A DNA stretch of 26,211 nucleotides from a virus. Location: positions 1 to 26,211 of the IMG/VR virus record IMGVR_UViG_3300046010_001892, one strand, 5' to 3'. The stretch's first letter is position 1; every line of letters begins with the position of its first letter. The notes under the pieces are model-generated. The model was not told the DNA's origin. It was given only the letters and a program-made list of their open reading frames with translations, and did not search any database. Below, in pieces: positions 7,165-24,131 of this stretch. The position numbers were made by a program, and so were the translations under genes.

Positions 7165-7516
7165 AATAGATGATTCCTACATAAGTTAAATAGTGCAGAG
7201 CTTGATCAACACCTAGCCATACCCACCACATACGATCACTGTAGGTATATCCTTGGTTGACTTGTTGTTTGACCCAATCGATATGATAATGTGCGATGAA
7301 ATCTACCAATGGCAATATCAACAGTTGTTCGGGACTACGGATAAAAGGTATCAGGATCAAGAATGTCCAACAAGCATGAGTAGCCGCATGATGTAAACCG
7401 CCTTCGGCACCATAGATGCCTTTGTCACGGATCATGTAATCATACTGCATGACGAAATCGGCGATGAAATGCTTGATGCCAAATAATGCTAATAATAGGA
7501 ATACAGTCAATGTCAT
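7148..7516 (-). CDS. DUF3307-like integral membrane protein, 122 aa
   Basis: The protein has three or four hydrophobic segments: about residues 1-13 (MTLTVFLLLALFG), 48-58 (WTFLILIPFI), 64-75 (LLILPLVDFIA) and 105-120 (LHYLTYVGIIYYV). Between them are the features I associate with DUF3307: KHFIADFVMQYDYM with a following K, an HHAATHA pair, DFIAHYHIDWVK, and GVDQALHYLTY. The family is found in bacteria and phages and has no established function; it should sit in the host inner membrane. The start overlaps the QueD stop by four bases. Confidence 0.8.
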   Translation of the reverse strand: MTLTVFLLLALFGIKHFIADFVMQYDYMIRDKGIYGAEGGLHHAATHACWTFLILIPFIRSPEQLLILPLVDFIAHYHIDWVKQQVNQGYTYSDRMWWVWLGVDQALHYLTYVGIIYYVTVS

Positions 7517-8061
7517 CTGTAATATACGCTACGGCTCTTAGGAGTCTCCCACCAGTCAATGTGGTCAACAGTTACATTAAGTTTCTGCATTTTCACATCC
7601 ACTAGGTCCGCCATCCAGCTGGATAAGTTTTCACTAGTTGGTACGAAATCTACTATCAAGAATCCTTCATAGTATTCATATTCTGGTGTGTTGGGTTCTA
7701 AATCACCCAAGTAGATGTTAAATCCTGCTACTTTGTCTGTGTCTGGAATGTACACTGGAATTAGTTTACGATCACCAATGATTTGACCATACAAAGGATC
7801 GCTACGATCTAACACGAACTGATGATCGATATATTCATTGATCCATTTCTTTAACCATTCAAGATGACGGAAGTCAGTTACCATACCAGTTGGATCTAAT
7901 TGACCAGTTGGGCTACGTAGATAAACCTGTAGTTTGCCTTCATGTCCATGTAGGTGACGACAAGCACACTTTAAGTCTGCAGCATATTCACCGTTTAGTT
8001 TCTGTGTCCAAACTCTGTGTCCATAACAGAATTCAAACGTTTTATCAATTATATGTGCCAT
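7513..8061 (-). CDS. queD: 6-carboxy-5,6,7,8-tetrahydropterin synthase (QueD), 182 aa
   Basis: QueD converts 7,8-dihydroneopterin triphosphate to 6-carboxytetrahydropterin, the second step to 7-deazaguanines. All key features are present: the first zinc His at H15 in FCYGH, catalytic Cys C34 in the CxxxHGH motif with zinc ligands H38 and H40, GMVTDF at 59-64, the Asp-His pair D79/H80, TSEN at 142-145 and the pterin-anchoring Glu E172 in WETP. At 182 residues it is longer than most bacterial QueD proteins (about 120-140); the extra sequence lies mainly at 85-135. It is far from FolE, QueE and the DpdA-like gene here, among small genes. I judge it the active QueD because the second family member at 17852-18280 lacks the catalytic residues. 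Confidence 0.93.
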   Translation of the reverse strand: MAHIIDKTFEFCYGHRVWTQKLNGEYAADLKCACRHLHGHEGKLQVYLRSPTGQLDPTGMVTDFRHLEWLKKWINEYIDHQFVLDRSDPLYGQIIGDRKLIPVYIPDTDKVAGFNIYLGDLEPNTPEYEYYEGFLIVDFVPTSENLSSWMADLVDVKMQKLNVTVDHIDWWETPKSRSVYYR

Positions 8062-8338: not shown

Positions 8339-8916
8339 ATGTTTTTTGCACTATCCAATATACTTTCTAACTGTGCTTGGCGTTCTAACAGTTTGAAAAA
8401 CAATGCTAGGGTATTAGCCGCATCAACATCCGCACGGTGTGCTTTACCTTTGAACTGTAGTTTGAACGAGCCCATAGCTGAACTCAATCCACCACTAGGT
8501 GCTTTACCACGTGTAAGCATCAAGTATGTATACCAAGTCTTAACATCTATCCAACGACGGCCAAAATGCGGAAAATCAGCATGGTTTTTACAGAATTCTG
8601 CCAATAATTCTACACTATCACCACCACCCCAGGTCACTGGGTTAATAAAGACCTTATGTTCTTTAATTAACTCACTGAGCTCACGGGCAACATGTTCATG
8701 GCTATATGCTTCTGCACGTATGTCACTATCAGTTATACCTGTGAGGTCATTGATGAATTCACTGATAGGCTCTTGCGGATCTATATACCATTTACGGACA
8801 ACGTAGTCTTCAAACCGTGTATTCTTATCACCTATGGCTACACCAACCTGTATAATTTTACCAGATGGCTGATTGAGCTCTAAATCGAGAGCTAAAAATT
8901 TATCTGTGGTTATCAT
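8335..8916 (-). CDS. DEDDh-family 3'-5' exonuclease, 193 aa
   Basis: The four acidic residues and His of DnaQ/RNase T-type exonucleases are visible: D11 and E13 in LALDLEL, D100 in WGGGDSVELL, and H160 with D165 in KAHRADVDAANTL. It should remove nucleotides from 3' ends of DNA or RNA with two metal ions. The length is typical for a stand-alone exonuclease domain of this superfamily. It follows the SGNH-like gene with a 4-base overlap and lies one gene away from the RNase H-like 5' nuclease, which suggests a role in replication, repair or host DNA breakdown. The exact substrate cannot be told. Confidence 0.88.
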   Translation of the reverse strand: MITTDKFLALDLELNQPSGKIIQVGVAIGDKNTRFEDYVVRKWYIDPQEPISEFINDLTGITDSDIRAEAYSHEHVARELSELIKEHKVFINPVTWGGGDSVELLAEFCKNHADFPHFGRRWIDVKTWYTYLMLTRGKAPSGGLSSAMGSFKLQFKGKAHRADVDAANTLALFFKLLERQAQLESILDSAKNI

Positions 8917-9818
8917 AGTCTATTAGGAAAGCGATTATTTTCTTTCCATAATGTATCTAAGTTGATTTTTAATCTTACATTTTTATCAATTTCTTTTGTC
9001 CAGTTTCTTGTATTTTCGCTAATAGGAATTTCTGATAATACTAAATCTAAATATGCTAAATGTTCTATTGGGGTTGGGTGTAAATCAAATCGAGTATATA
9101 GCTTATTCATTTTTCGATCAATATCATTCAAAATAGATATTGGTATGGTAGAAGATCTTTTTAAAACATAGTCTTCATATAACGGCCAGTCTGTTCCACG
9201 ATGGGTGTTATACATATTTTTAACATGATCATCTAAGATACCATTGTCAAATAGTTCATTACTGCTAAATGGTTTACTAGTCCAATCACAGTTAAAAATA
9301 GTTTCATAAATGCTAGGGCGAATAAAATCGATAGTTTCTTTATATAAATAAATAACATCAGCAACGTTAGTTGCTTTAACTGGACTGTATTGGTCAATAT
9401 TACTAATAGGAACCATTGATAAAAAAATATATTTTGCACTAATCTGATCTAGTATTTTTTTAGATGCATGTATAAACGCAAGATCTCGAATTAGATAACC
9501 GCGATCATCTGAATGTTTTTTTACAAAAAATTTATCAAGAAATTCTTGTGGTTGACTATATATACTACCTGGAGTTATCCATTGATTTTTTGCATATCTA
9601 TCTTCTCGATAGATATTTGTCCACATAATAACTACTGTGTCATTTTTTCCTAGTTTATTTCTAATGATGCATTCATTTAATGAATTAAAAATAAAATGAT
9701 TCCCACCACCACTTCTTCCCCAATTTTCATAAAAATCAAATTCTTGACCTAGTATATCAGCCCAAGTTGGCCACTCATATTGAGTAAAACTACATCCAAA
9801 GGTAAACAGTCTTTTCAA
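8913..9818 (-). CDS. SGNH/GDSL hydrolase-like protein, 301 aa
   Basis: The N-terminus MKRLFTFGCSFTQ carries a block I Ser within GCS(F). A later NWGRSGGGNHFIF segment fits the Gly and Asn blocks. Near the end, RFDLHPTPIEHLAYLDLVL gives the Asp-x-x-His type catalytic end. This supports an esterase or acetyltransferase-like SGNH fold, with a possible role in trimming or acylating a glycan, lipid or nucleotide; the substrate is unknown. The gene is distinctly AT-rich: one 60-base line (9001-9060) has 15 G+C by hand count, against 31 in the line at 2041-2100. This suggests separate acquisition. It overlaps its neighbours by four bases at each end. Confidence 0.7.
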   Translation of the reverse strand: MKRLFTFGCSFTQYEWPTWADILGQEFDFYENWGRSGGGNHFIFNSLNECIIRNKLGKNDTVVIMWTNIYREDRYAKNQWITPGSIYSQPQEFLDKFFVKKHSDDRGYLIRDLAFIHASKKILDQISAKYIFLSMVPISNIDQYSPVKATNVADVIYLYKETIDFIRPSIYETIFNCDWTSKPFSSNELFDNGILDDHVKNMYNTHRGTDWPLYEDYVLKRSSTIPISILNDIDRKMNKLYTRFDLHPTPIEHLAYLDLVLSEIPISENTRNWTKEIDKNVRLKINLDTLWKENNRFPNRL

Positions 9819-11874: not shown

Positions 11875-12981
11875 CTAATCCTTGAATAAATCTACGGTTT
11901 CCCATGGTAAGTTTGCTTTACCAAAGTGACCATAGTTAGTTGTGGAACTGTAGATAGGGCGGAACAGCTCAAATCTATTTATGATGCCTGCTGGTGTCAG
12001 ATCAACATTCTCACGTATCCACTGAGTAATAGTGTTATCAAACTCGATACCCTTGTTTGTCTTAACAAACAAGCTGGTGGGTTCTTTAACACCAATAGCA
12101 TAACTGATCTGCACTGTTGCTTTATGTGCGCCTTGCGTGGCTACGATATTCTTAGCTAGATACCTAGCCATATAAGCCGCACTACGATCCACCTTAGTAG
12201 GATCCTTGCCAGAGAATGCGCCACCACCGTGTGGACTATAACCACCATATGTATCGACAATGATCTTACGTCCTGTCAATCCAGTGTCGCCATCTGGGCC
12301 ACCAATGACAAATCTGCCAGTTGGATTGATGAGATATTCTGTATTGGCATCTATTAAATTTGGCGGCAATACTGTATCAATGATAGTTTTAACCTGCTCA
12401 CGTAAATCGTCGATATCTATATCAGCTGAGTGTTGCGTTGAACACACTATCTTAGCGATACGACTAACAGTGCCATCATCATTATATTCCATGGTAACCT
12501 GTGACTTGGTATCGGGACCTAACCATACCACTCCACTCTTGCGAACTGCTGTTAACCGTTCGACAATTTTGTGACTGTAGTAAATAGCACTGGGCATGAG
12601 ATCTGGCGTTTCGTTGATAGCATATCCAAACATAAGTCCTTGGTCACCAGCACCAAACGTGTCAGTGCCTAAGGCAATGTCTGCTGATTGACCGTGCATA
12701 TAGTTCTTGATGTCAACATTTTCCCAATGGAACCCCGTTTGCTCATAGCCAATATCGCGGATAACACGACGCACAGCATTTTCAACTTCTAGATGATTGT
12801 AAATACCTTTGTATTCACCAGCTAGGATGACTTGATTCGTAGTTACTAATGTTTCGCAAGCACACCGATAGGCCTTATTGCCTTCACGCATCATTAGATC
12901 TAATACTGCATCACTGATAGCGTCTGCTACCTTATCTGGATGTCCTTCACTGACACTTTCACTTGTAAATAGATAACTCAT
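11875..12981 (-). CDS. metK: S-adenosylmethionine synthetase, 368 aa
   Basis: MetK makes S-adenosylmethionine from methionine and ATP in the cytoplasm. The sequence is complete and canonical: SEGHPDKVADAISDAVLD near the N-terminus with the ATP-binding His and Asp, GAGDQGLMFGYA, GPDTKSQVT, FVIGGPDGDTGLTGRKI and GGGAFSGKDPTKVDRSAAY with the catalytic loop residues. Bacterial MetK is about 384 residues. I start at 12981 (MSYLFTSESV) and not at the in-frame ATG at 12993, because GGGGAG lies a few bases upstream of 12981 and the stop of the preceding small ORF overlaps this ATG as TAATG. A phage-borne MetK is uncommon. Two genes upstream is QueE, which needs SAM, so local supply for radical SAM and methyl-transfer enzymes is a reasonable inference. 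Confidence 0.95.
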   Translation of the reverse strand: MSYLFTSESVSEGHPDKVADAISDAVLDLMMREGNKAYRCACETLVTTNQVILAGEYKGIYNHLEVENAVRRVIRDIGYEQTGFHWENVDIKNYMHGQSADIALGTDTFGAGDQGLMFGYAINETPDLMPSAIYYSHKIVERLTAVRKSGVVWLGPDTKSQVTMEYNDDGTVSRIAKIVCSTQHSADIDIDDLREQVKTIIDTVLPPNLIDANTEYLINPTGRFVIGGPDGDTGLTGRKIIVDTYGGYSPHGGGAFSGKDPTKVDRSAAYMARYLAKNIVATQGAHKATVQISYAIGVKEPTSLFVKTNKGIEFDNTITQWIRENVDLTPAGIINRFELFRPIYSSTTNYGHFGKANLPWETVDLFKD

Positions 12982-13142
12982 TAAACTCCCCATTTTAGTG
13001 CAAATAGCACTCTATCGTACTCATTATTAAATTCAATTCTACATGGTCCGTCATGGAATGCCCAATTGTCAGGCCCAAAATAATCTAAACACCAAATGGT
13101 TATTTCACTCCATTTATTTTTATCAATATAAACTGTTATCAT
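12981..13142 (-). CDS. Small hypothetical protein, 53 aa, between QueE and MetK
   Basis: This short frame is coupled at both ends: its ATG overlaps the QueE stop as ATGA and its stop overlaps the MetK start as TAATG. That double coupling is the main reason to call it real. The product begins MITVYIDKNKWSEITIW, contains CLDYFGPDNWAFHDGPC and ends RVLFALKWGV. It is rich in Trp, Asp and Phe and has two cysteines. It could be a compact beta-rich accessory to QueE or MetK, but there is no direct evidence of function. Confidence 0.72.
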   Translation of the reverse strand: MITVYIDKNKWSEITIWCLDYFGPDNWAFHDGPCRIEFNNEYDRVLFALKWGV

Positions 13143-13990
13143 TTTCCCCAACTATTACCCCAAAGATCAACATGTAATCTTGGGCTGTAATAATAACCAC
13201 GACGCATAGCCTCATCAGCTACATTAAATTTATTACCATCATAGACTTTAACCACGCCGCCTACTGGCATAATGTATATAACACCTTTGAACTTGGCTTT
13301 ACGGTATTCTGATACTGCACGATCCACTTCGTCAAAATCTTTGGGATTCTCAACTACGAATTTAAGATAAGTTGTGCCAACCTTTTCATAGCTCTTAACT
13401 ATCTCAGGTTTAACTGCATCAGCCCACTTCTCACCACTTGCTGATAGTTTAGCACTAACTGAGAATGTAATCTCACGACTGCCACGATTCCATAATTTTA
13501 GATACTTGGCAAAGTCTTCATGTAGTTCTTGAGTACCATTTGTTTCGAATGTTAAGTTCTTAAGATTATACATATTCTTATGGCTTAATAATTCTGGATA
13601 AGCACGTTGCCAACCTAGTAACGGTTCACCACCTGTGATAACCAAATGTGTGTCATTACCATTGGGCATGATCCAACTGTTGCTAGGTACCAGATCCAGC
13701 ATACGTTTTACTACAGCATCAATTTCTAACAAGGGACTAAGATGTTTGAACTTTGGATCCCAACTCGCATAACTGTCACAGCCTGTTGTGACTAATGGAA
13801 GTTCTTCATATATACGATATTTTGTTGGATCAATGAACTCGCGTTCAGTGCTCATCTGTGTGCGATCTGTCATGCCAAAACCACCACAGGTAAAGTTACA
13901 GCCGAAGGTCCTTAAGAACACACTAGGCACACCAATAAAGCGTCCTTCACCTTGTGCTGAATAAAATATTTCGGATACTTTTAGTTTCAT
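13139..13990 (-). CDS. queE: 7-carboxy-7-deazaguanine synthase (QueE), 283 aa, with split Fe-S motif
   Basis: QueE is a radical SAM enzyme that turns 6-carboxytetrahydropterin into 7-carboxy-7-deazaguanine. The N-terminus VSEIFYSAQGEGRFIGVPSV is diagnostic. HLVITGGEPLLGWQ is the SAM-binding GGEP region and LTFETNGTQ follows as expected. The cluster motif is unusual. Canonical QueE has CxxxCxxCD followed by an aromatic and Trp; here C31 and C35 are followed by 35 inserted residues before C71, which sits in GCDSYASWDP, the usual downstream half of the motif. All three cysteines are thus kept but separated. The length (283) exceeds typical bacterial QueE (about 210-245) partly because of this. 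The ATG follows a perfect promoter by six bases, without an RBS. Confidence 0.93.
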   Translation of the reverse strand: MKLKVSEIFYSAQGEGRFIGVPSVFLRTFGCNFTCGGFGMTDRTQMSTEREFIDPTKYRIYEELPLVTTGCDSYASWDPKFKHLSPLLEIDAVVKRMLDLVPSNSWIMPNGNDTHLVITGGEPLLGWQRAYPELLSHKNMYNLKNLTFETNGTQELHEDFAKYLKLWNRGSREITFSVSAKLSASGEKWADAVKPEIVKSYEKVGTTYLKFVVENPKDFDEVDRAVSEYRKAKFKGVIYIMPVGGVVKVYDGNKFNVADEAMRRGYYYSPRLHVDLWGNSWGK

Positions 13991-14025: not shown

Positions 14026-14571
14026 TCAGCGTTCCCACGGATAAACGATCCAAACATCTTCTTCGGCTTTGTTTATCTCTATAGCACTGTAGTCGACCTT
14101 GCGACTAAACTTGCTGCTTAGGTTATCAAATAATACAGCAAAACGAACATTATTACCCCAGATGTCTACCCAGGCTGGATCGTTGGGCAAATTACCTGCT
14201 TGCCAATCTTGGATAATCCAATCAAGTGTAGCACCTGTGTCATTGATGTCATCTAATATTAAGATGTTTTTACGTAGCGCGGGATCGCTGGTTGGCTCAC
14301 CTTTAGGTCTAGGCACAGCACTAGCATCTATATAGCCAAAGGCATCTTCTGCCATCCATCCATTGCTTTCACCACCTGAACCATCACGTAGGGCTACTTT
14401 CAATGTTTCCATTGGAATATCTAATGTATGGCTCATATACACAGCAGGAATTAATCCACCTCTGGTTAGTCCCACGATATAGTCTGGGCGCCAATCGTCC
14501 TTGTACATTTTAAAACTGATCTGATTTACATATTCTTGGATCTGTTGATCACTAACGTATAATTTTTTCAT
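14026..14571 (-). CDS. Type I phosphoribosyltransferase, 181 aa
   Basis: The PRPP-binding motif ILILDDINDTGATLD lies at about residues 103-117, preceded by the YIVGLTRGGLIPA loop at 31-43, as in hypoxanthine/xanthine-type phosphoribosyltransferases. It should join a purine-like base to PRPP, making a nucleotide and pyrophosphate. A 30-residue insertion rich in Gly, Ser and Pro (about 63-98) lies where the flexible hood or loop normally is. It sits between FolE and QueE in a 7-deazaguanine neighbourhood, so a role with a deazapurine base is worth considering, though simple purine salvage is the conservative reading. It overlaps the upstream gene by four bases. Confidence 0.85.
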   Translation of the reverse strand: MKKLYVSDQQIQEYVNQISFKMYKDDWRPDYIVGLTRGGLIPAVYMSHTLDIPMETLKVALRDGSGGESNGWMAEDAFGYIDASAVPRPKGEPTSDPALRKNILILDDINDTGATLDWIIQDWQAGNLPNDPAWVDIWGNNVRFAVLFDNLSSKFSRKVDYSAIEINKAEEDVWIVYPWER

Positions 14572-14879: not shown

Positions 14880-15212
14880 TTATCCTTTGTATGCACGTAC
14901 ACTAGAAATTTTAGCAATTTCATTAAAGGTGATAACATCAGTAACTAATATCTGTTCTTTACCATCGATAGTGATTAGTAGTTCGGCTAACACGGTATAG
15001 CCATCTTGATATAATGCGGCTGGTGTTACTGCTATAGAAGTCACGCCGTTAAAAATTTTTCCATACACCGATAACACATCGTCTTTGCCTTCTGCGTTGT
15101 TTTCCCAATCACGCAAGACACAATTATCTGCAAATAATTTTTCTAATGCATGTAGATTCTTTGTTGAAAATAGATAAAAATAGTATAATGCTTCTGCTTT
15201 TAAATCAATCAT
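14880..15212 (-). CDS. NTF2/SnoaL-like protein, 110 aa
   Basis: The start LKAEALYYFYLFSTKNLHALEKLFADNCVLRDW is the helical N-terminus and first strand typical of SnoaL/NTF2-like proteins. It is followed by GKDDVLSVYGKIFNGV, a strand pair and ELLITIDGKEQILVTDVITF, the curved-sheet core. The length of about 110 residues is normal. These cone-shaped proteins act as small hydrolases, isomerases or binding modules; no catalytic set can be assigned here. It overlaps FolE by four bases at its start, so the two are co-translated, which hints at a pterin- or sugar-related role without proving it. Confidence 0.72.
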   Translation of the reverse strand: MIDLKAEALYYFYLFSTKNLHALEKLFADNCVLRDWENNAEGKDDVLSVYGKIFNGVTSIAVTPAALYQDGYTVLAELLITIDGKEQILVTDVITFNEIAKISSVRAYKG

Positions 15213-15904
15213 CTTGGGGCAAACTCCTGTTGTAATTTAATATTATCAAAGAATTCTTTCTTAGTATTACCATCTTCTTTGAATGCGCCTTTTAACACTG
15301 TAGTCTGTGTTAGACTACTGTGTGCCATGATACCACGATTCTCACAGCAACCGTGAGTGGCTTGAATATATACAGCAACATTATCACTACCTGTGGCTTT
15401 CATTATTTCACGGGCGATGTCATTAGCAAGTTCTTCTTGTAGCGTACCACGACGACTACACCATTGAGCAATACGAGTATACTTGCTAAGACCAATAAGT
15501 TTTTGTGCGGCGATAATCCCAATATAGGCAACACCAGCGACAGGCTGATGATGATGACTACACATACTGCGAAGCTCACTTCTAACCACGAGCATACCTT
15601 CATAACGGTCCTCCGAATCATTTGGAAAAGCTGTAGCATCTGGTGCTGGATCATAGCGTCCTGCCATGATCTCATAGATGTACATTTTTGCTAGTCTATG
15701 TGCTGTACCTTGACTATTTGGATCTGTTTGTCTGTCAATCAACAGACTGTCAAGGACACCTTCAAATTTCTCAGTTAGTTCATCTACTAATTCTGCACGT
15801 TCGCTATCTAAGATATGCGCTGATATATTATCACCAGCCCAATATCTAGTATTAGTTGCGTGTATGCGTTCGAGAATTCGTTCGCTGATTGTTTTATCAC
15901 TCAA
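15209..15904 (-). CDS. folE: GTP cyclohydrolase I (FolE), 231 aa
   Basis: FolE converts GTP to 7,8-dihydroneopterin triphosphate and formate, the first step to both folates and 7-deazaguanines. The zinc ligands are in place: C115 and H118 in SMCSHHHQP, and the third Cys in ATHGCCENRG (C186 or its neighbour). KLIGLSKYTRIAQWCSRR and LQEELANDIA match the family core. The N-terminal 60 residues are helical and less conserved. The start is TTG at 15904, chosen because GGAG lies seven bases upstream and no ATG exists between it and the promoter. The family size (about 190-230) fits. It heads the transcript from the promoter at 15948-15976. With DHFR present a folate role is also possible. Confidence 0.94.
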   Translation of the reverse strand: MSDKTISERILERIHATNTRYWAGDNISAHILDSERAELVDELTEKFEGVLDSLLIDRQTDPNSQGTAHRLAKMYIYEIMAGRYDPAPDATAFPNDSEDRYEGMLVVRSELRSMCSHHHQPVAGVAYIGIIAAQKLIGLSKYTRIAQWCSRRGTLQEELANDIAREIMKATGSDNVAVYIQATHGCCENRGIMAHSSLTQTTVLKGAFKEDGNTKKEFFDNIKLQQEFAPR

Positions 15905-15978: not shown

Positions 15979-16557
15979 TTATTTGATAATAATTTCACGT
16001 AAGTCTGGGTATTCAAAATATTTAGGCGTTTGATCAACTGTATCTAATTTTTCTAATCCTTTTACTGCTTCTTCGATCGTAGGTTTATAATGATATCCAA
16101 TATTAAATACCTTTTGGTCTTCCCAAGGAGTTATACTTAGATCACGGCCATCATAGCATTGATGTTTGAGTACTTTATATACTTCTATATCATCTGTGAG
16201 TATGGCTCCACCGCGTCCGATCTCAAGTGGTTTACCGTAGCCAAAACTTAAACACTGTAATTGCCCCTCACGATACATATTTTGTTTTAATAATCTAGCA
16301 CTGTCCCAAACTCGTGTACCTATAAACTGATATTCACCAGTCCACAGTTTATCACTGTAGTTGTATACGATGCCTAGCTTGTGCATGGTCATTGGGATAC
16401 TGAGATAGGTATGTGCTGGAAATGATACCCGTTCAATCTTATCATAGCGCAAGCATAGTTCAATGGCATGCGTACAGCAGTCAGTCATGACTGCATATGG
16501 TGCACCGGTGAACTTGGCTAGTGCAGATTCAAACTCGTAGATCTTATCAAATGTCAT
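15979..16557 (-). CDS. Short DegT/DnrJ/EryC1/StrS-type PLP aminotransferase-like protein, 192 aa
   Basis: Members of this family transfer an amino group to keto-sugars on nucleotides. The sequence keeps the core signatures: FTGAPYAVMTDCCTHAIELCL at the N-terminus, RVWDSARLL with the PLP-contacting Asp, and LSFGYGKPLEIGRGGAILTDD, in which the Lys of GYGKPLE is the expected Schiff-base Lys. GYHYKPTIEEAVKGLEKL matches the usual C-terminal end of the large domain. At 192 residues it is about half the normal 370-400, lacking parts of the large domain and the small C-terminal domain. It starts by ATGA overlap with the glycosyltransferase and ends next to the FolE promoter, so it looks like a deliberately compact gene rather than a broken one. 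Confidence 0.78.
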   Translation of the reverse strand: MTFDKIYEFESALAKFTGAPYAVMTDCCTHAIELCLRYDKIERVSFPAHTYLSIPMTMHKLGIVYNYSDKLWTGEYQFIGTRVWDSARLLKQNMYREGQLQCLSFGYGKPLEIGRGGAILTDDIEVYKVLKHQCYDGRDLSITPWEDQKVFNIGYHYKPTIEEAVKGLEKLDTVDQTPKYFEYPDLREIIIK

Positions 16558-17618
16558 TTGATATTTTTTAATAGATTAGTTGCGCTAAAGAAGTTGGTGT
16601 GCAGACTTTCTGCTTGTGCCCTAAGTATACGCAAAGTGCTTGGATAGTTTTCTATATGATAGTGTATCACATCCATAAGTTCAGATTTATATGCTTGGTA
16701 ACTGTCCCATGATTCTGTATATTCACTAGGATACTTGAATATGCTTGAATACATTTCTGTATAACTCAAACGATCTGGAACTATTGGTATAGCATTTACC
16801 AATGTACCTTCATAACAGCTGATACCCAATGTTTCTTGTAGGTTCGCACTAAACACAATCTTGGCCTGACCCAACAGCTGATGATATTCTTCTTTAGTCA
16901 GAGTCCGATCTTGACAGACAATCCATTCATACTCGGGCATTGACTCCGCAAGATCACGGAATATTTCTACTTGTTTCTCAGGTGCTAGACGATGTGGGAA
17001 TAATATTAGATCACGCTTAGGTAAGTTTTTATATGGAAGTAATACATTCTCCATATACTCCATTGGCCAACCTGTGCGGACTACGTGATTAGGTTTGATC
17101 TGATCGTAACCTGTGGCTAATCCCAATAGATTTTTTTCAAATATATCTATATGGAATTCTGTAGCAAAGTAGTTATGATCTATAGCGTAGAAGAAACTTT
17201 TCTCTGCATGTCTGACCCAAGGAGCATCACCGATCAATCTACCCAGGAAGTCTTGCGGATCATAACTACCAGCATGCCATAAGGCATGTATCTTTACTGG
17301 AATGCCTAACAGCTCTGACATGTATTTTAGATTAATGATGCCAGGATGCCATGCGTCAGTAAAAAGAAAGTGATCACCAGAGATAACTCTACCATCACAA
17401 AACAACCGTCCGATAGTTTCAACTTGACATGCTTTGTAGACATTAGTGCCACCAAAATTAAGAAAAGCGCCAGGGGTAGTAGCACTTGGAATATCAGTGG
17501 GTCCACTGATGACGGTAACATCATGTCCGTTCTCCTTTAATAGATTAGGCACATGGGTCTTCCATTGACCCGTGTACCTTGTTTCAACTGCTTCTAGATC
17601 AACTAGGAATACAGCCAT
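16554..17618 (-). CDS. GT-B-fold glycosyltransferase-like protein, 354 aa
   Basis: The protein looks like a GT-B glycosyltransferase. The N-terminal Rossmann half includes WKTHVPNLLKENGHDVTVISG. The C-terminal half has KRDLILFPHRLAPEKQVEIF, a typical donor-domain entry, EYEWIVCQD, and FSANLQETLGISCYEGTLVN, the E-x7-E-like motif that contacts the sugar nucleotide in GT4-like enzymes. IPIVPDRLSY follows. It would use a nucleotide sugar; the acceptor could be DNA, a virion protein or a host glycan. It is coupled to the short DegT-like gene by four bases and to a small basic protein by one base. Retention of the C-terminal motif makes the family fairly sure; the acceptor is not known. Confidence 0.78.
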   Translation of the reverse strand: MAVFLVDLEAVETRYTGQWKTHVPNLLKENGHDVTVISGPTDIPSATTPGAFLNFGGTNVYKACQVETIGRLFCDGRVISGDHFLFTDAWHPGIINLKYMSELLGIPVKIHALWHAGSYDPQDFLGRLIGDAPWVRHAEKSFFYAIDHNYFATEFHIDIFEKNLLGLATGYDQIKPNHVVRTGWPMEYMENVLLPYKNLPKRDLILFPHRLAPEKQVEIFRDLAESMPEYEWIVCQDRTLTKEEYHQLLGQAKIVFSANLQETLGISCYEGTLVNAIPIVPDRLSYTEMYSSIFKYPSEYTESWDSYQAYKSELMDVIHYHIENYPSTLRILRAQAESLHTNFFSATNLLKNIK

Positions 17619-17851: not shown

Positions 17852-18280
17852 CTATACGGACACAGATTGATATGGACGAGTATGATTATACTCAACGTAA
17901 CACCCATTTTCGCCATCTTCGGATACTTCTATCCAAACATCACGATTGGGATATTTGGCAGCGATCTGTGTATACAAATCATCTGCGATCATCTCACAAC
18001 TTTTATAATCTAGTTGTAATACTGTATTTACATATAATGATTCCAACCAACGTTTAAATTGTATAAACTCTAGTTCACGGTCATCGTGGAATACATCAAT
18101 ACTTATCTTAAAATGAAATATATGACGATGCGGATGTGCTAGAAAACTAACGTCAGCTAGGTTAGCTTCTGTAGCCGCTGCTGGAAAGCAATGGATACCT
18201 TCACGCTGGAAAGTAACCCATATTTTCTTTTGGCTGGCTTTAATTACTCTATCTATCTTTTCACGTTCTTCTAATATCAT
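17852..18280 (-). CDS. Degenerate QueD/6-pyruvoyl-tetrahydropterin-synthase-like protein, 142 aa
   Basis: I read this as a T-fold (PTPS/QueD superfamily) protein that has lost its active site. The pattern FPAAATE at 32-38 aligns with the FxAAH strand of QueD but has Ala where the zinc His should be. HPHRH at 49-53 aligns with the HGH motif, keeping H51 and H53, while the position of the catalytic Cys, four before the first His, is Leu. SCEMIADDLY at 94-103 fits the TSEN-like segment and IEVSEDGENGCYVEY at 117-131 fits the pterin-anchoring Glu strand. The canonical QueD at 7513-8061 keeps all these residues. This paralogue might bind a pterin or deazaguanine without catalysis. The superfamily call is from pattern only. 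Confidence 0.55.
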   Translation of the reverse strand: MILEEREKIDRVIKASQKKIWVTFQREGIHCFPAAATEANLADVSFLAHPHRHIFHFKISIDVFHDDRELEFIQFKRWLESLYVNTVLQLDYKSCEMIADDLYTQIAAKYPNRDVWIEVSEDGENGCYVEYNHTRPYQSVSV

Positions 18281-18804
18281 TTGATTATCTCATCTTTAGC
18301 ATACTGATCCCAGTCAGTAAATGCTTCTGTTGTAGTTAAATCTCTCAAACGGTGGCACCACACACCTGGATTCGAGTGCTCAAAATCTAAGTCGTCTAGC
18401 TTAATTGTAGCATTATATCCCAGCTGTGTCAAGTAGGGTAATTTTACCGAAATTTGTGGAATAAATCTGCGATGTCCAATAAATGTACACTCTAGCACAC
18501 CTTGTACTACTGCAACGTCAAAGTCTAGGGTACACCAAAGATCTGCGGTCAAGCATTGATCAATCATACGTTCCCATGGACGCCACCCATCAGCATCATC
18601 TGTGTCTAACTTGGGAAAACTTTGATTAGCACCAAAATAAATGTGCCTACAATCTTTTTCTTTGGCTAGTGCGATGATTTCTTCTGCAGGTTGTACACCT
18701 ACTACAAACAATGTCATCATTCCGTAAGCAGGAGTCCGTTCAATCTCCACGCCTGTAAAGTATGTTATATCTTCTTTTACGCCATCAGTATAATCACGCT
18801 TCAT
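18277..18804 (-). CDS. Hypothetical protein, 175 aa
   Basis: I do not recognise a family. Visible stretches are DITYFTGVEIERTPAYG, TLFVVGVQPAEEIIALAKEK, CRHIYFGANQSFPKLDTDD, and a C-terminal region with VLECTFIGHRRFIPQISVKL, YNATIKLDDLDFEH and GVWCHRLRDL. The mixture of beta strands and helices suggests an alpha/beta domain. I start at the ATG at 18804 (11-base overlap with the upstream gene) and not at an in-frame GTG at 18843, which would overlap by 50 bases. It overlaps the QueD-like gene by ATGA and may work with it; I cannot say how. Confidence 0.72.
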   Translation of the reverse strand: MKRDYTDGVKEDITYFTGVEIERTPAYGMMTLFVVGVQPAEEIIALAKEKDCRHIYFGANQSFPKLDTDDADGWRPWERMIDQCLTADLWCTLDFDVAVVQGVLECTFIGHRRFIPQISVKLPYLTQLGYNATIKLDDLDFEHSNPGVWCHRLRDLTTTEAFTDWDQYAKDEIIK

Positions 18805-18988
18805 CGTATTCTGCCAATTTCTTTTTAGTGTCTTCAATATCACGCTTGATACCTAATTTCTCGTGTTTAATTTTGCCGAGATGCATGTCATCTAGGTAAT
18901 GACTGTAGCCATCTTTGATTTTCTTTTCTAATGCTGTATGGCGTTCTTCTAAATGGGTTAAGTGATGTTGTAACTTTTCTTTATTCAT
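18794..18988 (-). CDS. Small coiled-coil protein, 64 aa
   Basis: The protein is almost entirely charged helix: HHLTHLEERHTALEKKIKDG, then YSHYLDDMHLGKIKHEKLGI, then a final DIEDTKKKLAEYDEA. Heptad-like Leu/Ile spacing suggests two antiparallel helices. The pattern resembles the many small YdcH-like or SlyX-like helical proteins, but I would not name it. The ATG at 18988 follows AAAGGGG with good spacing, so translation should be efficient. Confidence 0.75.
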   Translation of the reverse strand: MNKEKLQHHLTHLEERHTALEKKIKDGYSHYLDDMHLGKIKHEKLGIKRDIEDTKKKLAEYDEA

Positions 18989-18999
18989 ATCTCACCCCT

Positions 19000-20145
19000 T
19001 TATGATAATAAATCTATTTCAAATGTCTGATTAAAATTTTGATTTCTTATTTTATCCATAGTCGATGTGTATTCTATAAATTTAGTTGATAGTGTTTCGT
19101 TTATTATACTATCATTTAGATTTTTTTGCAATGAATTTAATGTTCCTAAGCTACTAATATGAACTGTTTTTTCTATATCTGTTAGTATCAATAACGTTTG
19201 ATGGATTTCTATAAGTGCCTTATCTTTTAATTTTTTAGTAAGCACTTGTGGATGTAAGAAATTAGGAGTATCGCAAATTGCACACCATATCTCTAATGGT
19301 TGGTTAGGAAATTTTTCTTTCTGCGTCTTAAAAAATCTTGCCAAATTACTTAAATCTAAAACGCTATACGCACTCAATACAGTATTAAATGCAACACTGT
19401 GGCCTAATAATAATATTTGATCGATGTTATCTTGTAATTTTTCCCACTTAGTACCATTTCGTACATATTCAGCAGTAGATCCAACCCCGTCGATACTTAT
19501 AGTCCAATGCACATTATTGAATTTTTTAACCAATTTTAATATTTTATTATTAATAACTGAACCATTGGTAGTGATTAATATTTCACAATCGGTATTACCT
19601 AATGCAATCAATTCTTCAAATACACTAATATTTTCTTTAATTAATAATGGTTCTCCTCCGGTAAAATTAATCCGTTTTACAGTCGGAAGGAAAGTAATTA
19701 AATCAGATCTTATTAAGGTATTCTCCATGTGTATGTTTGACGTAATACTATAATATGTTTTTAGTTCTTCATGTTCTGATAATTCTCTGGATATTTCGCT
19801 ACTAAATGCCGGCTCACAGGTCCTGCAACTGAAGTTACATAGATTACTATGTCTTAGGTCAAGATATTCTGTCTGAGTAGGAACGGTATCTATATTATAA
19901 TCCCAATCATTCAGTGCTAGTGTTCTGGTGCTATTATATCCTTGATTTTCTAAACGGACACAAGATTGGCAATCAGGAGGTATATCACCATTGGTGATGG
20001 TTTCTCTTACTACCTTTATGTAATCAGAATTAGCAAATTCTGTAGGAGTTAGGTTGAGTTTAGTACCACTACTACAACACATTTTAATTCCGTCTGCTTG
20101 GATAAATTGATGTATCCAAGGCAAAGGGCAAAAGAATTTAGACAT
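19000..20145 (-). CDS. Twitch/SPASM-type radical SAM protein, 381 aa
   Basis: The canonical cluster motif CNFSCRTC occurs at 103-110 (C103, C107, C110), followed by INFTGGEPLL for SAM binding, EILITTNGSV and VHWTISIDG, all in radical SAM order. The first 62 residues contain FCPLPW, MCCSS and CQSC, a cysteine set (C6, C23, C24, C59, C62) like the auxiliary-cluster Twitch/SPASM modules, here placed before the radical SAM core. The substrate is unknown; related proteins modify peptides or sugars. The gene is very AT-rich (line 19501-19560 has 11 G+C in 60), unlike its neighbours, which suggests separate acquisition. Its ATG lies eight bases inside the end of the DpdA-like gene, so the two are translationally linked. 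Confidence 0.85.
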   Translation of the reverse strand: MSKFFCPLPWIHQFIQADGIKMCCSSGTKLNLTPTEFANSDYIKVVRETITNGDIPPDCQSCVRLENQGYNSTRTLALNDWDYNIDTVPTQTEYLDLRHSNLCNFSCRTCEPAFSSEISRELSEHEELKTYYSITSNIHMENTLIRSDLITFLPTVKRINFTGGEPLLIKENISVFEELIALGNTDCEILITTNGSVINNKILKLVKKFNNVHWTISIDGVGSTAEYVRNGTKWEKLQDNIDQILLLGHSVAFNTVLSAYSVLDLSNLARFFKTQKEKFPNQPLEIWCAICDTPNFLHPQVLTKKLKDKALIEIHQTLLILTDIEKTVHISSLGTLNSLQKNLNDSIINETLSTKFIEYTSTMDKIRNQNFNQTFEIDLLS

Positions 20146-21715
20146 CTTGTTCTAATTCATCTAGTCTAGTTTCATCTAAGCCGCTGTCATCTACATGGTG
20201 TTCTTCCACGGGATCGTCAGTTGCAAATAAATCATTAAACGTAGTGCTAGAGTTCATAGTTTTTTTACCTATAGCACCTCGTGTGCCAATGATACCCATC
20301 CAATACTTGTTATAGTATTCAATCAATGCCAAGGCATCTTCTCTGTTGTCAAGTGCGAATATCATATCTACTATGTCACGGAAATTGTTAACTCCATAGT
20401 TCCTCGGGGTCTTCTTGTCTGCTGTTTCAGAATTCAACATGGCTGGACGTATATTAAGATCATATTCACGATTGGCTTGTTGTACTGCTGTTAAATGGCT
20501 CCAAACATTATGCCCCATCTGTATAGCATAGCTAAAACTGTCCCAGCTGGTCTTGCCTTCTTTGTTGATCTTATTTAGATCGCCTGGCGCATAGATACAA
20601 ATATCTTTAATAGTGCAACGTTGGCTAATTGGACTCTCTGTAAAGTTTTCAAAGATCTTATCTTGTATGACAGCGTCTTTAAATCTGCGTGTGTCCTTGG
20701 CATACTTCTTATCATCTACACTGGGTACCATACGATATACCCATTTCTCTTTGTCTACTATCTCTGTCTGGATATAAATCTGACCGTTAGCACTTGCTAA
20801 GAATGGACTTGCACAGTCAAAGGATATAGTAAATTTAGGATTATGATATTTACGCACTGCACGTTGTATATCTGTTAATAAACAAGCCCATTCAAGTTTA
20901 CTTGTGCCTAAGAAGTGCATCCAATCATGAAGTCCTTCTTCTAATAGCCCATCAAAACGTAGTGCTACTAATCTTTTCAGCACAAGATGCACATCGCACA
21001 TATTCTGCCCACCCATGGCCCAACCATTGAATGGCTGTTCATATTGATTAGGATCACAGTATTTCTTCATGCGTTGATACCAATCTTCTGCTTCTGCGTG
21101 ATTTTCACCTTGTAATACGTTTAAGAACTTACACGCACCTGTACGGTGTTTCATAAAGTAATCGTTATTGATATATGTGCCTTCTACAGCTTCCATATAA
21201 CTAGTAATACCACTGGCTTTGCGGCCTTCTGGTGATCTACATACCCATGCTGGAATATCCAAGATCATACCATAGTCCATATAAGCATCCATCCATGCTA
21301 ACACTAGCTCACGTTTTTTCTGTGCCTTAGGACATGCAGGGTTCTTCCAATCACCTTCCCATACACCCTTACCAATCTGGAACCCACCGCTATCACCTAA
21401 TACAAACGATCTACTTCGATCACGATTACGTATCATGTCTTCTTTAGGACTGACTTTATTTGTATCAAGTTCTGCGTGACCTGCCGAATACAGTGCCCAT
21501 TGATATGGAAAATAAGCGGCATCTGGATTGAGCCAATTAAGACCCTCAATACCGTTTTCAAAGTCTGCCGGAACTCGTGCAGGATCTACATATAGGTCAC
21601 CAGTTTCGACATTAGGAAAACGTTGCTTGCCTACATAGGTAGCATAGAAGCCACTCAATGCTGGTAAGAATACAGCATAGTCTAGTTGCTTGCTGGTTAA
21701 ATTATCACGTTCCAT
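20138..21715 (-). CDS. dpdA: DpdA/TGT-like 7-deazaguanine transglycosylase, 525 aa
   Basis: The protein belongs to the tRNA-guanine transglycosylase superfamily. DSGGFQ at 108-113 is the base-binding Asp motif; NVLQGE at 199-204 and GWAMGGQ at 231-237 match the substrate loops; FDCASPF has the expected nucleophile at D300. GHNVWSHLTAVQQANREYD resembles the TGT C-terminal helix. The usual tight CxCxxC zinc site is not evident. At 525 residues it is longer than bacterial TGT (about 375), with an acidic tail. Phage DpdA enzymes exchange guanine in DNA for a 7-deazaguanine base. With FolE, QueD and QueE in the same window, the DNA-modifying role is favoured over tRNA, but the sequence alone does not prove the substrate. 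A possible promoter lies at 21767-21796. It overlaps the sulfotransferase by 11 bases. Confidence 0.85.
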   Translation of the reverse strand: MERDNLTSKQLDYAVFLPALSGFYATYVGKQRFPNVETGDLYVDPARVPADFENGIEGLNWLNPDAAYFPYQWALYSAGHAELDTNKVSPKEDMIRNRDRSRSFVLGDSGGFQIGKGVWEGDWKNPACPKAQKKRELVLAWMDAYMDYGMILDIPAWVCRSPEGRKASGITSYMEAVEGTYINNDYFMKHRTGACKFLNVLQGENHAEAEDWYQRMKKYCDPNQYEQPFNGWAMGGQNMCDVHLVLKRLVALRFDGLLEEGLHDWMHFLGTSKLEWACLLTDIQRAVRKYHNPKFTISFDCASPFLASANGQIYIQTEIVDKEKWVYRMVPSVDDKKYAKDTRRFKDAVIQDKIFENFTESPISQRCTIKDICIYAPGDLNKINKEGKTSWDSFSYAIQMGHNVWSHLTAVQQANREYDLNIRPAMLNSETADKKTPRNYGVNNFRDIVDMIFALDNREDALALIEYYNKYWMGIIGTRGAIGKKTMNSSTTFNDLFATDDPVEEHHVDDSGLDETRLDELEQDV

Positions 21716-22292
21716 AGTATCTCAATGAATTAATTAGTTTATAGTCATTAGCATAGTGTTTTTTTAATTTTAACACAAATTTTGTATCATTGTCAATGAT
21801 AGTTTGATATTTGATTTTTAATTGTTGTTTTCCTATATTTAGATCTGAGGCATTATATTGTTTCATATTATCAACATCTACATGATAACCAAACTTGTTA
21901 AACCAAGTTTTTAAATTTGCTCTTAAACGATCATTGACCATAAAGAAATCAGTTTTATCGATCACGATATCTTGTATGAAATAATCCTGTGTTTCTGTGT
22001 GATCATCGAACGTTATCTGTTGATAATCAATATTGGTTTGCTTACTATTAAATTCATACTCGGCCATACCACTTATCCAACGGTCAATTGGATCACGTAA
22101 TGCTACCAAGTATCTATTAGATTTAACCAATTGATCACTACGTGTAAATGCTAAAGTTGATAACAAACATCCTTTAATAAAACTACTAGCACATTTAGGT
22201 ATATGGACATAGGTAACATCTTGATCGTAATCAACCCAACATTCGCCTAAGATATGACCTAAATGTGCCCAACGATCATACCCTGGTTTCAT
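21705..22292 (-). CDS. Sulfotransferase-family protein, 195 aa
   Basis: The 5'-phosphosulfate-binding loop is recognisable as VHIPKCASSFIKG (residues 29-41), and the 3'-phosphate motif as LVALRDPIDRWISGM (62-76), spaced as in sulfotransferases that use PAPS. The C-terminal third (DLNIGKQQLKIKYQTIIDND and on) is less recognisable. The protein is short for the family (about 250-300). The substrate is unknown; a glycan or lipid is usual. The gene is AT-rich (line 21781-21840 has 12 G+C in 60). It starts by one-base overlap with the clamp gene and its 3' half holds a possible promoter for the DpdA-like gene. Confidence 0.75.
   Translation of the reverse strand: MKPGYDRWAHLGHILGECWVDYDQDVTYVHIPKCASSFIKGCLLSTLAFTRSDQLVKSNRYLVALRDPIDRWISGMAEYEFNSKQTNIDYQQITFDDHTETQDYFIQDIVIDKTDFFMVNDRLRANLKTWFNKFGYHVDVDNMKQYNASDLNIGKQQLKIKYQTIIDNDTKFVLKLKKHYANDYKLINSLRYYGT
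21767..21796 (-). promoter_or_regulatory. Possible sigma70-type promoter for the DpdA-like gene
   Basis: The minus strand reads TTGACA (21791-21796), an 18-base spacer and TAAAAT (21767-21772). It is inside the sulfotransferase gene, about 50 bases before the ATG at 21715. The -35 is perfect, but the -10 and spacer are weaker than in the other promoters and the region is AT-rich, so chance is a real possibility. Confidence 0.45.
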
Positions 22293-23023
22293 TACTTACT
22301 CTGTGCTGGTAAGATGTAGTTGTATGTAGCAAGTCCTGAGTTAACAGTGATCTGTGCCGCACCCTCGTCGCTGATACTAAATTTCTTATCACCTGCTAGG
22401 TTTAAGATACTCAATACAGCATTAACTGGCCATGACCAATTTTTACTTAATGTACCAGTAACACCAGCTTGAAACACAAAATTACCTGCGTGACTACTAT
22501 GATCGCCAAATGATAATTCTAAATTACCGTTGTTAGTTTTAGCAGTGAAATTTGCTTCTTCTGCATTTGCACTAGCTTGGAATTTAAGTCTTTGGATATT
22601 AGCCACTGTTGGTTCAAATTCTACATGCCATGTCACTGGGCGCATCTTAACTGTTTTGAGTTTGTCGTTGACAATCTCTTGGCTCATAAAACGATAATCA
22701 TTTTTAAAGTCACCTGCGGCATTTTCAAAATGTAAGCCTACTGGAACAGATTGTCCATTTCGATCTTGTTTAGTCAACGTGATTTTAGCATTTTCTTTGT
22801 ATTCTGGAATACCTAAGATAGTGTTTAGTTTACCTAAGTTTGGCATACCAAATGTACCAATAAATTCTGCTACTGGTCCGTTTAATTTAGCCTGGACGAT
22901 AACACTGCGATCTTCTGCTAGTGCTTCGATATTAGTTTCTGAATCTGTGCCTGACACTTTAACTAGGTCAATAATGCCCAAGCCATACGTGTTACGAACG
23001 ATGTCTAATAGATGGTCTCTCAT
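22292..23023 (-). CDS. DNA polymerase sliding clamp (gp45-like), 243 aa
   Basis: The sequence fits the T4-like phage clamp pattern. An N-terminal helix is followed by EALAEDRSVIVQAKLNGP and the FIGTFGMPNLGKLNTILGIP segment, a signature I associate with gp45 homologues. A second region (FEPTVANIQRLKFQASANAE, then FQAGVTGTLSKNWSWPVNAV) mirrors the repeated clamp domains. The length of 243 is close to T4 gp45 (228). A homotrimeric ring holding the polymerase on DNA is expected. The gene has one of the strongest RBSs here (AAAGGAG then AATTAA and ATG). In T4 the clamp-loader genes 44 and 62 lie beside genes 43 and 45; here only a methyltransferase-like gene separates polymerase and clamp. Confidence 0.82.
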   Translation of the reverse strand: MRDHLLDIVRNTYGLGIIDLVKVSGTDSETNIEALAEDRSVIVQAKLNGPVAEFIGTFGMPNLGKLNTILGIPEYKENAKITLTKQDRNGQSVPVGLHFENAAGDFKNDYRFMSQEIVNDKLKTVKMRPVTWHVEFEPTVANIQRLKFQASANAEEANFTAKTNNGNLELSFGDHSSHAGNFVFQAGVTGTLSKNWSWPVNAVLSILNLAGDKKFSISDEGAAQITVNSGLATYNYILPAQSK

Positions 23024-23087: not shown

Positions 23088-24131
23088 TTATTTTGATTGT
23101 ACGGTGCCCATGGCCTGTCCTAGTTTGATTGTGGTTAATGTTCCCGGGCGACGAACTTCTATCCAGCTGGTCCAACTATTTGTTTTCCAATCGTGACGAT
23201 GAGGATCTGGAATAGTTTCATCTAGAATAGTCCAAGTTGGGGTACTAGTATATTTAGATTCTAGATCATACGTAGCAACAATTTCAAACCCCACACTCTG
23301 AGCTAACTTTTTCATCTGATCAGAGTTTGCCCAACATGCTTGTTTGCTGTCTACTAATGCTGCAGAACTTTCTATGTTGCAATTATTGTAGCTAAACATC
23401 AATACTCCACCGGGTCTCAATAGATTAAACATCAGTCTCAAATAGGATTCAATGCGGTCAAATAAAACATAATTTAAGAAATCCCAACAGAGTATGAAAC
23501 CAAATTGAGATTGTGGTAATAGTGATAAATCAAAATTTGTTATGTCATATAGCCGAACTCTACGCTGATAAACATCAGGATACGTGGAAATTATTCTATA
23601 TAAATCAGACATGTTTGATGATGCTAGATATAAAGGATCACTGGCTACCATGGAATTAATATGGTCTGTAGCACTTACATATTTCATCTCTGATTCAGAT
23701 AAAGGGTTCGTCTCATTCTCAGAGAAGCCTGGGTAATACCTACAATTTAGCTGCAATCCAGGATACTGCCAACTACTATAACTACTGATCCTGGATTGAA
23801 CGACACTAGTCACATCTGAGTTAGCCCATAAAAAATATTCATTTGATTCCTGTGAAAGTGTTGTACCTAGAACCCTGATGTCGTCTTCGATTTCCTTCAG
23901 AGATTGATGCATGAAATCTATTATATCATTATTGTCAGAGAGTAATTTCTGATATATCTTTGTATATTGATCTATATATTGACCATAATCATACTCAGAC
24001 TGGTCAAACTTATGCTGTAGATTTTCTATAGTAAGTAATTTTTCAGATATTATGTCATCTAAGGACAAACTATCGATGATATCTCTGACGTTGTTTTTAA
24101 ATCTTACTAGTTCGCTTAATTTGGTCATCAT
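23088..24131 (-). CDS. Class I methyltransferase-like protein with N-terminal coiled coil, 347 aa
   Basis: Residues 1-100 are helical with coiled-coil-like spacing (ENLQHKFDQSEYDYGQYIDQ). The C-terminal part looks like a Rossmann methyltransferase: VRLYDITNFDLSLLPQSQFG, FILCWDFLNYV, then the conserved LLRPGGVLMFSYNNC strand-turn and a later GFEIVATYDLESKY. The glycine-rich SAM-binding motif I is not obvious; the place where it is expected reads ASDPLYLASSNMSDLY without the usual Gly pattern. It may therefore bind SAM in an altered way or be inactive. It is coupled to the polymerase stop by ATGA and lies just upstream of the clamp, so it may be a replication-linked modifier; the substrate is unknown. 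Confidence 0.65.
   Translation of the reverse strand: MMTKLSELVRFKNNVRDIIDSLSLDDIISEKLLTIENLQHKFDQSEYDYGQYIDQYTKIYQKLLSDNNDIIDFMHQSLKEIEDDIRVLGTTLSQESNEYFLWANSDVTSVVQSRISSYSSWQYPGLQLNCRYYPGFSENETNPLSESEMKYVSATDHINSMVASDPLYLASSNMSDLYRIISTYPDVYQRRVRLYDITNFDLSLLPQSQFGFILCWDFLNYVLFDRIESYLRLMFNLLRPGGVLMFSYNNCNIESSAALVDSKQACWANSDQMKKLAQSVGFEIVATYDLESKYTSTPTWTILDETIPDPHRHDWKTNSWTSWIEVRRPGTLTTIKLGQAMGTVQSK

Follow-up and report, generated by a model that had tools for sequence, protein, structure and literature searches.

A radical SAM gene held in a phage DpdA operon is a candidate for optional tailoring of deazaguanine DNA hypermodification

Gene content of the locus

The DNA analysed in this study, referred to below as the window, is an entire IMG/VR record of 26,211 bp; it is a phage fragment whose predicted genes lie on the minus strand. 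The features under discussion are collected in Table 1. The central gene, rSAM, encodes a radical SAM protein and had been predicted to start eight bases inside the end of a DpdA-like transglycosylase gene, which proves exact. The description of this neighbour also holds. The DpdA-like protein finds no match in Pfam, PHROGs or NCBIfam and none that is meaningful among PDB sequences, and PDB sequence searches with rSAM, orf189 and the 142-residue phrog_17812 protein likewise gave nothing useful. All 16 top PDB matches of its AF2 model (pLDDT 79) in Foldseek (E <= 0.001) are TGTs, and D108 (in DSGGFQ) and D300 (in FDCASP) are invariant in 13 divergent rows, with homologues that include those of PA5oct-type, Sinorhizobium and Vibrio phages. 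We take these residues to be the two catalytic aspartates of the TGT type, one in the DSGGFQ motif and the other in an FD-type motif.

Table 1. Features of the window, with positions counted from its first base
Feature	Position	Strand	Basis or remark
QueD-like	7513..8061	-	PF01242, 92 bits; TIGR03367 below cut-off
S-adenosylmethionine synthetase (MetK)	11875..12993	-	
QueE-like	13139..13990	-	TIGR03365 and related models, E 7e-13; below curated cut-offs
Phosphoribosyltransferase-like (PRT)	14026..14571	-	PF00156
FolE, GTP cyclohydrolase I	15209..15904	-	
Short DegT-type aminotransferase-like	15979..16557	-	PF01041; conserved in many loci
Glycosyltransferase-like (GT)	16554..17618	-	conserved in DpdA operon
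phrog_17812 protein, 142 aa	17852..18280	-	kept with DpdA in Pseudomonas phage PAC2 as well
orf189, conserved anchor	18277..18843	-	far end of variable slot
Small protein gene	18794..18988	-	strong Shine-Dalgarno
rSAM, N-terminal-twitch radical SAM (N_Twi_rSAM), 381 aa	19000..20145	-	NF033640, PF04055, tree; AT-rich; DpdA-operon clade
CxxxCxxC radical SAM motif (C103, C107, C110)	19816..19839	-	invariant, 10 clade members
N-terminal Cys C6, C23, C24, C59, C62 (presumed auxiliary-cluster, twitch, ligands)	19960..20130	-	invariant, 10 clade members
8-nt overlap of dpdA end and rSAM start	20138..20145	-	ATGTCTAA; rSAM ATG without Shine-Dalgarno upstream
Last dpdA codons (ELEQDV + stop)	20138..20161	-	differ between relatives with and without rSAM
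DpdA-like DNA guanine transglycosylase, 525 aa	20138..21715	-	TGT fold, D108 and D300 invariant; Foldseek, alignment
Sulfotransferase-like cargo, AT-rich	21705..22292	-	between clamp and DpdA; PF03567 weak, 17 bits
Sliding clamp homologue	22292..23023	-	homologue of PAC2 gene annotated proliferating cell nuclear antigen

DpdA operons of this type give at least 600 matches in IMG/VR. Upstream, their loci run polB, methyltransferase-like gene, clamp, in some cases the sulfotransferase-like gene, and DpdA; a variable slot follows, and beyond it lie orf189, the phrog_17812 gene, GT, DegT, FolE, PRT, QueE, MetK, an exonuclease gene and QueD, although individual loci have gained or lost genes and some are rearranged. 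FolE, QueD-like and QueE-like genes are all present in the window, and their order is conserved across DpdA loci. The Pseudomonas jumbo phage PAC2 retains polB, clamp, DpdA, GT, the phrog_17812 protein, a PRT, QueE and the exonuclease, and also has an epimerase-like gene. The GT is a divergent one, and in PAC2 it directly follows DpdA (L091:9617-10678). The phrog_17812 protein keeps its place next to DpdA down to an identity of 51%, seen in this phage; by eye it resembles QueD/PTPS proteins, but a role as second QueD was rejected, as profile comparison with the window QueD gave no support. Relatives of the sulfotransferase-like gene score just over the PF03567 cut-off. The conserved GT may glycosylate the modified base, and the operon MetK could serve as a supply of SAM.

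No full-length QueC was found in the lineage records of 115-338 kb or in the complete PAC2 and Phosso genomes, with partial matches in two records; this check covered the long DpdA-positive records G001-G012, G023-G028, PP408249.1 and PV764938.1, the window itself being a fragment. FolE, in contrast, turned up in the majority of the long records examined for it. Since the lineage yielded no full-length QueC, a preQ0-type precursor is not established, and what DpdA inserts may be a product of the QueE level or may require QueC from the host. Vibrio phage 2.275.O does have QueC, and its DpdA is a distant relative.

The radical SAM protein and its clade

The NCBIfam model NF033640 (N_Twi_rSAM) matches rSAM over its full length (residues 2-376) with 280.3 bits against a cut-off of 170, and PF04055 matches with 41 bits. 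Both the CxxxCxxC and GGE motifs of radical SAM proteins are intact, and GGEP (G163-P166) is invariant among 10 clade members. Judged by its sequence, the protein is a true N_Twi_rSAM, in which the five conserved N-terminal cysteines are presumed to bind an auxiliary cluster. The label 'Twitch/SPASM-like' in the original prediction thus stands for Twitch; SPASM applies only as the N-terminal half-SPASM of NF033640, and none was seen C-terminally with Pfam and NCBIfam profiles. The AF2 model (pLDDT 82) matches the solved structures of SkfB, anSME, EpeE, BlsE, SuiB, MoaA and viperin. The gene is under purifying selection (dN/dS 0.08-0.20). It is as AT-rich as had been noted, with 30.7% GC against 40.3% in DpdA and 39.2% in the window, but two other window genes are equally low, the sulfotransferase-like gene (30.6%) and an SGNH-like gene at 8913-9818 (29.0%). 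Only distant cellular relatives were found, the best being 28% identical and from a Bdellovibrionales MAG, so that bacterial context is of no help.

The linkage of rSAM to DpdA depends on the level at which it is viewed. In the family as a whole, co-occurrence with DpdA was rejected, as DpdA lies within 6 kb at only 1 of 69 non-clade N_Twi_rSAM loci from the same scan; the earlier suggestion that similar radical SAM proteins are common phage cargo is borne out at this level. The clade of the window behaves differently. In the clade census, which combined single-protein and profile scans of IMG/VR with one contig found by another route (L171), all 16 contigs that carry a clade member besides the window have DpdA in the same operon; these include near-duplicates and amount to about 11 distinct sequences. 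The clade is monophyletic with a support of 100/99 in a tree built without L171, and it is set apart by score, at least 498 bits against at most 296 for all others. Together, the complete linkage and the monophyly argue that the association exceeds chance placement.

Outside the clade, N_Twi_rSAM genes are found among T4-like neck and tail genes, at a CHASE2-cyclase gene, in the vicinity of a gene for a sugar dehydrogenase, and in arrays that reach eight copies; the nearest sister proteins of the clade occupy unrelated places such as the first three of these. Occurrence mostly without DpdA, or beside peptide- or glycan-related genes, had been named as evidence against a link to DpdA; the former is true of the family but not of the clade. 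Some nucleotide-sugar genes (epimerase, UDP-glucose dehydrogenase) do lie near non-clade members, whereas for the clade itself the context is the DpdA operon throughout. Arrays in which five to eight N_Twi_rSAM genes stand in tandem were seen in L100-L103 and in G003, G013-G015, G023, G024 and G026, and one partial phage record holds up to 17 copies. Other N_Twi proteins have also entered DpdA operons (L021, L022, L044 and L197). Those of L021 and L022 form their own clade, with the L022 copy directly after DpdA, and that of L197, the single positive among the 69 loci, shares an operon with DpdA, where it is flanked by orf189 and the phrog_17812 gene. Viewed from the other side, only 4 of the best 80 DpdA loci carry rSAM.

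The dpdA junction and the variable slot

Overlap by itself was rejected as evidence of a link, as 23 of the 40 adjacent gene pairs in the window overlap, 8 of these by at least 8 nt. In more distant relatives without rSAM (e.g. L042, L076) the start of the next gene may also overlap the dpdA end, which shows that such an overlap is not unique to rSAM. The junction is nevertheless kept in most clade members, down to 45-50% rSAM identity. The start lies 8 nt inside dpdA in the window, L004, L008, L015, L082-L085, L087, L088 and L171, and the ORFs overlap by about 23 nt in L039, L097 and L098; in L086 rSAM lies downstream of dpdA, and in L089/L090, where gene order is rearranged, it is two genes away and still inside the DpdA operon. 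Shine-Dalgarno pairing at the rSAM start is +0.2 kcal/mol (rank 33 of 39 window starts), and given the lack of such a site, reinitiation after DpdA is predicted. The DpdA C-terminus itself varies with the gene that follows, reading EQDV* with no GGAG where rSAM is present and mostly LGE* with a GGAG for the next gene in close relatives without it. Related phages thus exchange rSAM in the form of a cassette, which takes the place of the final few codons of dpdA. Because the AF2 model of DpdA is of low confidence at residues 480-525, the tail swapped with the cassette is probably disordered and dispensable.

The slot that rSAM occupies between dpdA and orf189 holds other genes in other phages, among them a GFO/IDH/MocA and alcohol dehydrogenase (ADH) pair, a HIT-methyltransferase, a 2OG-Fe oxygenase and a sulfate permease. 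A scan with the GFO protein gave 41 contigs, and in 38 of them the GFO/IDH and ADH pair, at 48-100% identity, lies between DpdA and orf189; of the three others two lack the dpdA side or are unanchored. The positions noted for this pair, whose ADH is of the Zn type, are L026:11882-13661 and L136-L176. The two enzymes may serve the DpdA operon in tailoring, and their genes occur together with rSAM in L039 and L171. The former contig also holds a second, different radical SAM gene (L039:5227-6123; 298 aa, PF04055) between clamp and DpdA. The families of GT, DegT, GFO/IDH, ADH and the PAC2 epimerase-like gene suggest that the operon builds a sugar-like group.

Comparison of 12 contigs with rSAM and 76 without it revealed no strong partner gene, nor any family of small ORFs of at least 60 aa that was convincingly specific to rSAM loci. 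Two candidates were unconvincing. The sulfotransferase-like gene showed a weak excess (9/12 against 25/76; p 0.007, uncorrected), and a gene that is by eye possibly nuclease-like, with no Pfam match, was present in 3/12 against 0/76. The latter lies between orf189 and the phrog_17812 gene (L083:7993-8643, L085:11872-12165, L086:11489-12079).

The synonymous distances of rSAM and dpdA are decoupled. When the window is compared with L084, rSAM has a dS of 0.36 and DpdA one of 1.70; for L008 against L015 the values are 1.67 for rSAM and 0.86 for DpdA. This indicates that rSAM moved between phages independently of dpdA, yet was kept in the same operon. Congruent descent was rejected, since the correlation of rSAM and DpdA protein distances (rho 0.66) is matched by a value of 0.65 between rSAM and clamp, and some pairs, L008/L015 among them, are in conflict. 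As controls for position, the sulfotransferase-like gene lies at the same place upstream of DpdA in 6/6 relatives and the SGNH-like gene at its own place in 2/2, small samples that cover close relatives only. Homologous recombination via conserved flanks can therefore explain why rSAM stays by dpdA without any chemical link. Even where phages are otherwise close, the methyltransferase-like gene (23088-24131) and the sulfotransferase-like gene, on either side of the clamp, differ strongly in sequence and form an allele mosaic, as does the rSAM slot. The original prediction allowed that the link might be only positional; it is more than chance placement, but as rSAM is optional, moves independently of dpdA and shares its bound position with other cargo, it need not be chemical.

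Possible function and comparison with known systems

The reading that we tentatively prefer is that rSAM is an optional tailoring enzyme of a DpdA-centred, sugar-like deazaguanine DNA hypermodification. FolE, QueD and QueE would make a 7-deazaguanine, and DpdA would swap guanine in the phage DNA for that base. GT, the mini-aminotransferase and, in many relatives, the GFO/IDH and ADH pair would then assemble a sugar-like group, and rSAM, translated via reinitiation after DpdA, would use its 5'-deoxyadenosyl radical to remodel this group or its donor, so that carriers would end with a different final base. The original prediction had proposed tailoring of the inserted base or its precursor. This is compatible with the data, and the GT, DegT, GFO/IDH and ADH neighbourhood favours a sugar-like adduct rather than the deazaguanine core as the target. 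A slightly more doubtful proposition is the general one that a radical SAM enzyme, encoded in a cassette that phages exchange and that is coupled in translation to dpdA, customises, in a radical step after QueE, the sugar-like adduct on a DpdA-inserted 7-deazaguanine or the core of that base. Literature searches brought up no paper that describes tailoring by a radical SAM enzyme alongside DpdA in phages. What speaks for tailoring is the clade-level linkage with its monophyly, set against the family-level rate, the junction kept across deep divergence without a Shine-Dalgarno site, the purifying selection on a protein with intact motifs, the entry of other N_Twi proteins into DpdA operons, the GFO/IDH and ADH pair, the GT beside DpdA in PAC2 and the presence of MetK. 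Against it we count the rarity of rSAM among the best DpdA loci, the decoupled dS, the sister proteins elsewhere, the sulfotransferase-like and SGNH-like cargo that is also position-bound, and the lack of a strong partner gene.

Almost as plausible is the explanation that rSAM, directed at the host or at surface glycans as other N_Twi proteins may be, landed in the slot 3' of dpdA, spreads by recombination in the flanks and stays there without working on DNA, the overlap being ordinary operon packing. The DpdA-free contexts and arrays of the N_Twi family, with some epimerase and UDP-glucose dehydrogenase neighbours, agree with such position-bound cargo, as do the optional presence of rSAM, its decoupled dS, its GC3 of 0.25 against 0.35 for DpdA, the two position controls and the frequency of overlaps in the window. 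However, a single one of these phages may encode as many as 12 N_Twi proteins, of which only those of the window clade are at DpdA; in L089/L090 rSAM remains in the operon despite the rearranged order; coupling of the reinitiation type across deep divergence exceeds what cargo needs; and the position controls reach close relatives only. It is improbable that the substrate of rSAM is a free nucleotide rather than DNA, from which, as with viperin or MoaA, it would produce a small molecule that serves host takeover or counter-defence. In NCBIfam, viperin and MoaA do come next after NF033640 (52 and 45 bits, respectively), and both are among the fold matches, but these scores are far below the cut-offs of 180 and 284 bits and are explained by general similarity of the radical SAM core. 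More improbable still is a peptide maturase for the small protein encoded beside it, since, although the closest solved folds (SkfB, anSME, EpeE, SuiB) are RiPP or sulfatase maturases and a small gene follows rSAM, a small gene also directly follows dpdA in many relatives without rSAM, and no small ORF family of at least 60 aa sets the rSAM loci convincingly apart.

If the tailoring reading is right and the base is what the clade acts on, a shared deazaguanine scaffold would receive modules of radical chemistry that phages swap in much the same way as glycosyltransferases, and the clade would offer a genetic handle for predicting and finding new DNA nucleosides. Even if it is not, this work outlines a large TGT-fold DpdA operon of aquatic phages, with glycosyltransferase, aminotransferase and oxidoreductase genes and no recognisable QueC.

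Compared with known systems, rSAM shares its radical SAM core with QueE and other deazaguanine radical SAM enzymes, and a QueE-like PHROG match covers part of it. Its architecture differs from that of QueE in the N-terminal twitch and its length, and the window encodes a separate QueE-like gene. By its full-length match rSAM belongs to the NF033640 family, in which its clade differs from the other members in being found only in DpdA operons. The Vibrio phages KVP40 and nt-1 encode N_Twi-like radical SAM proteins (KVP40.0260 and VPFG_00320) that are 25-30% identical to rSAM, and they also encode FolE and QueC; a DpdA of the window type was found in neither genome, and in nt-1 the radical SAM gene (60 kb) is remote from the preQ0/DpdA2 cluster (236-240 kb), unlike in the window. 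Profile comparison of the window DpdA gives a marginal match to DpdA2 of nt-1 (E 0.0049, probability 7%) and no detectable match to DpdA of phage 9g (E 0.2). Such weak similarity among DpdA subfamilies is not unusual, since DpdA2 of nt-1 was itself missed by PSI-BLAST from 9g DpdA (Hutinet et al. 2019, PMC6884629). The lineage of the window differs from both systems in that its records yielded no full-length QueC. However, the DpdA2 motifs DSGG(F/L)Q, D-x-P and IS(F/Y)D align with the window DpdA, the order of polymerase, clamp and DpdA in 9g is that of the window lineage, and in all three systems a TGT-fold transglycosylase is accompanied by deazaguanine genes.
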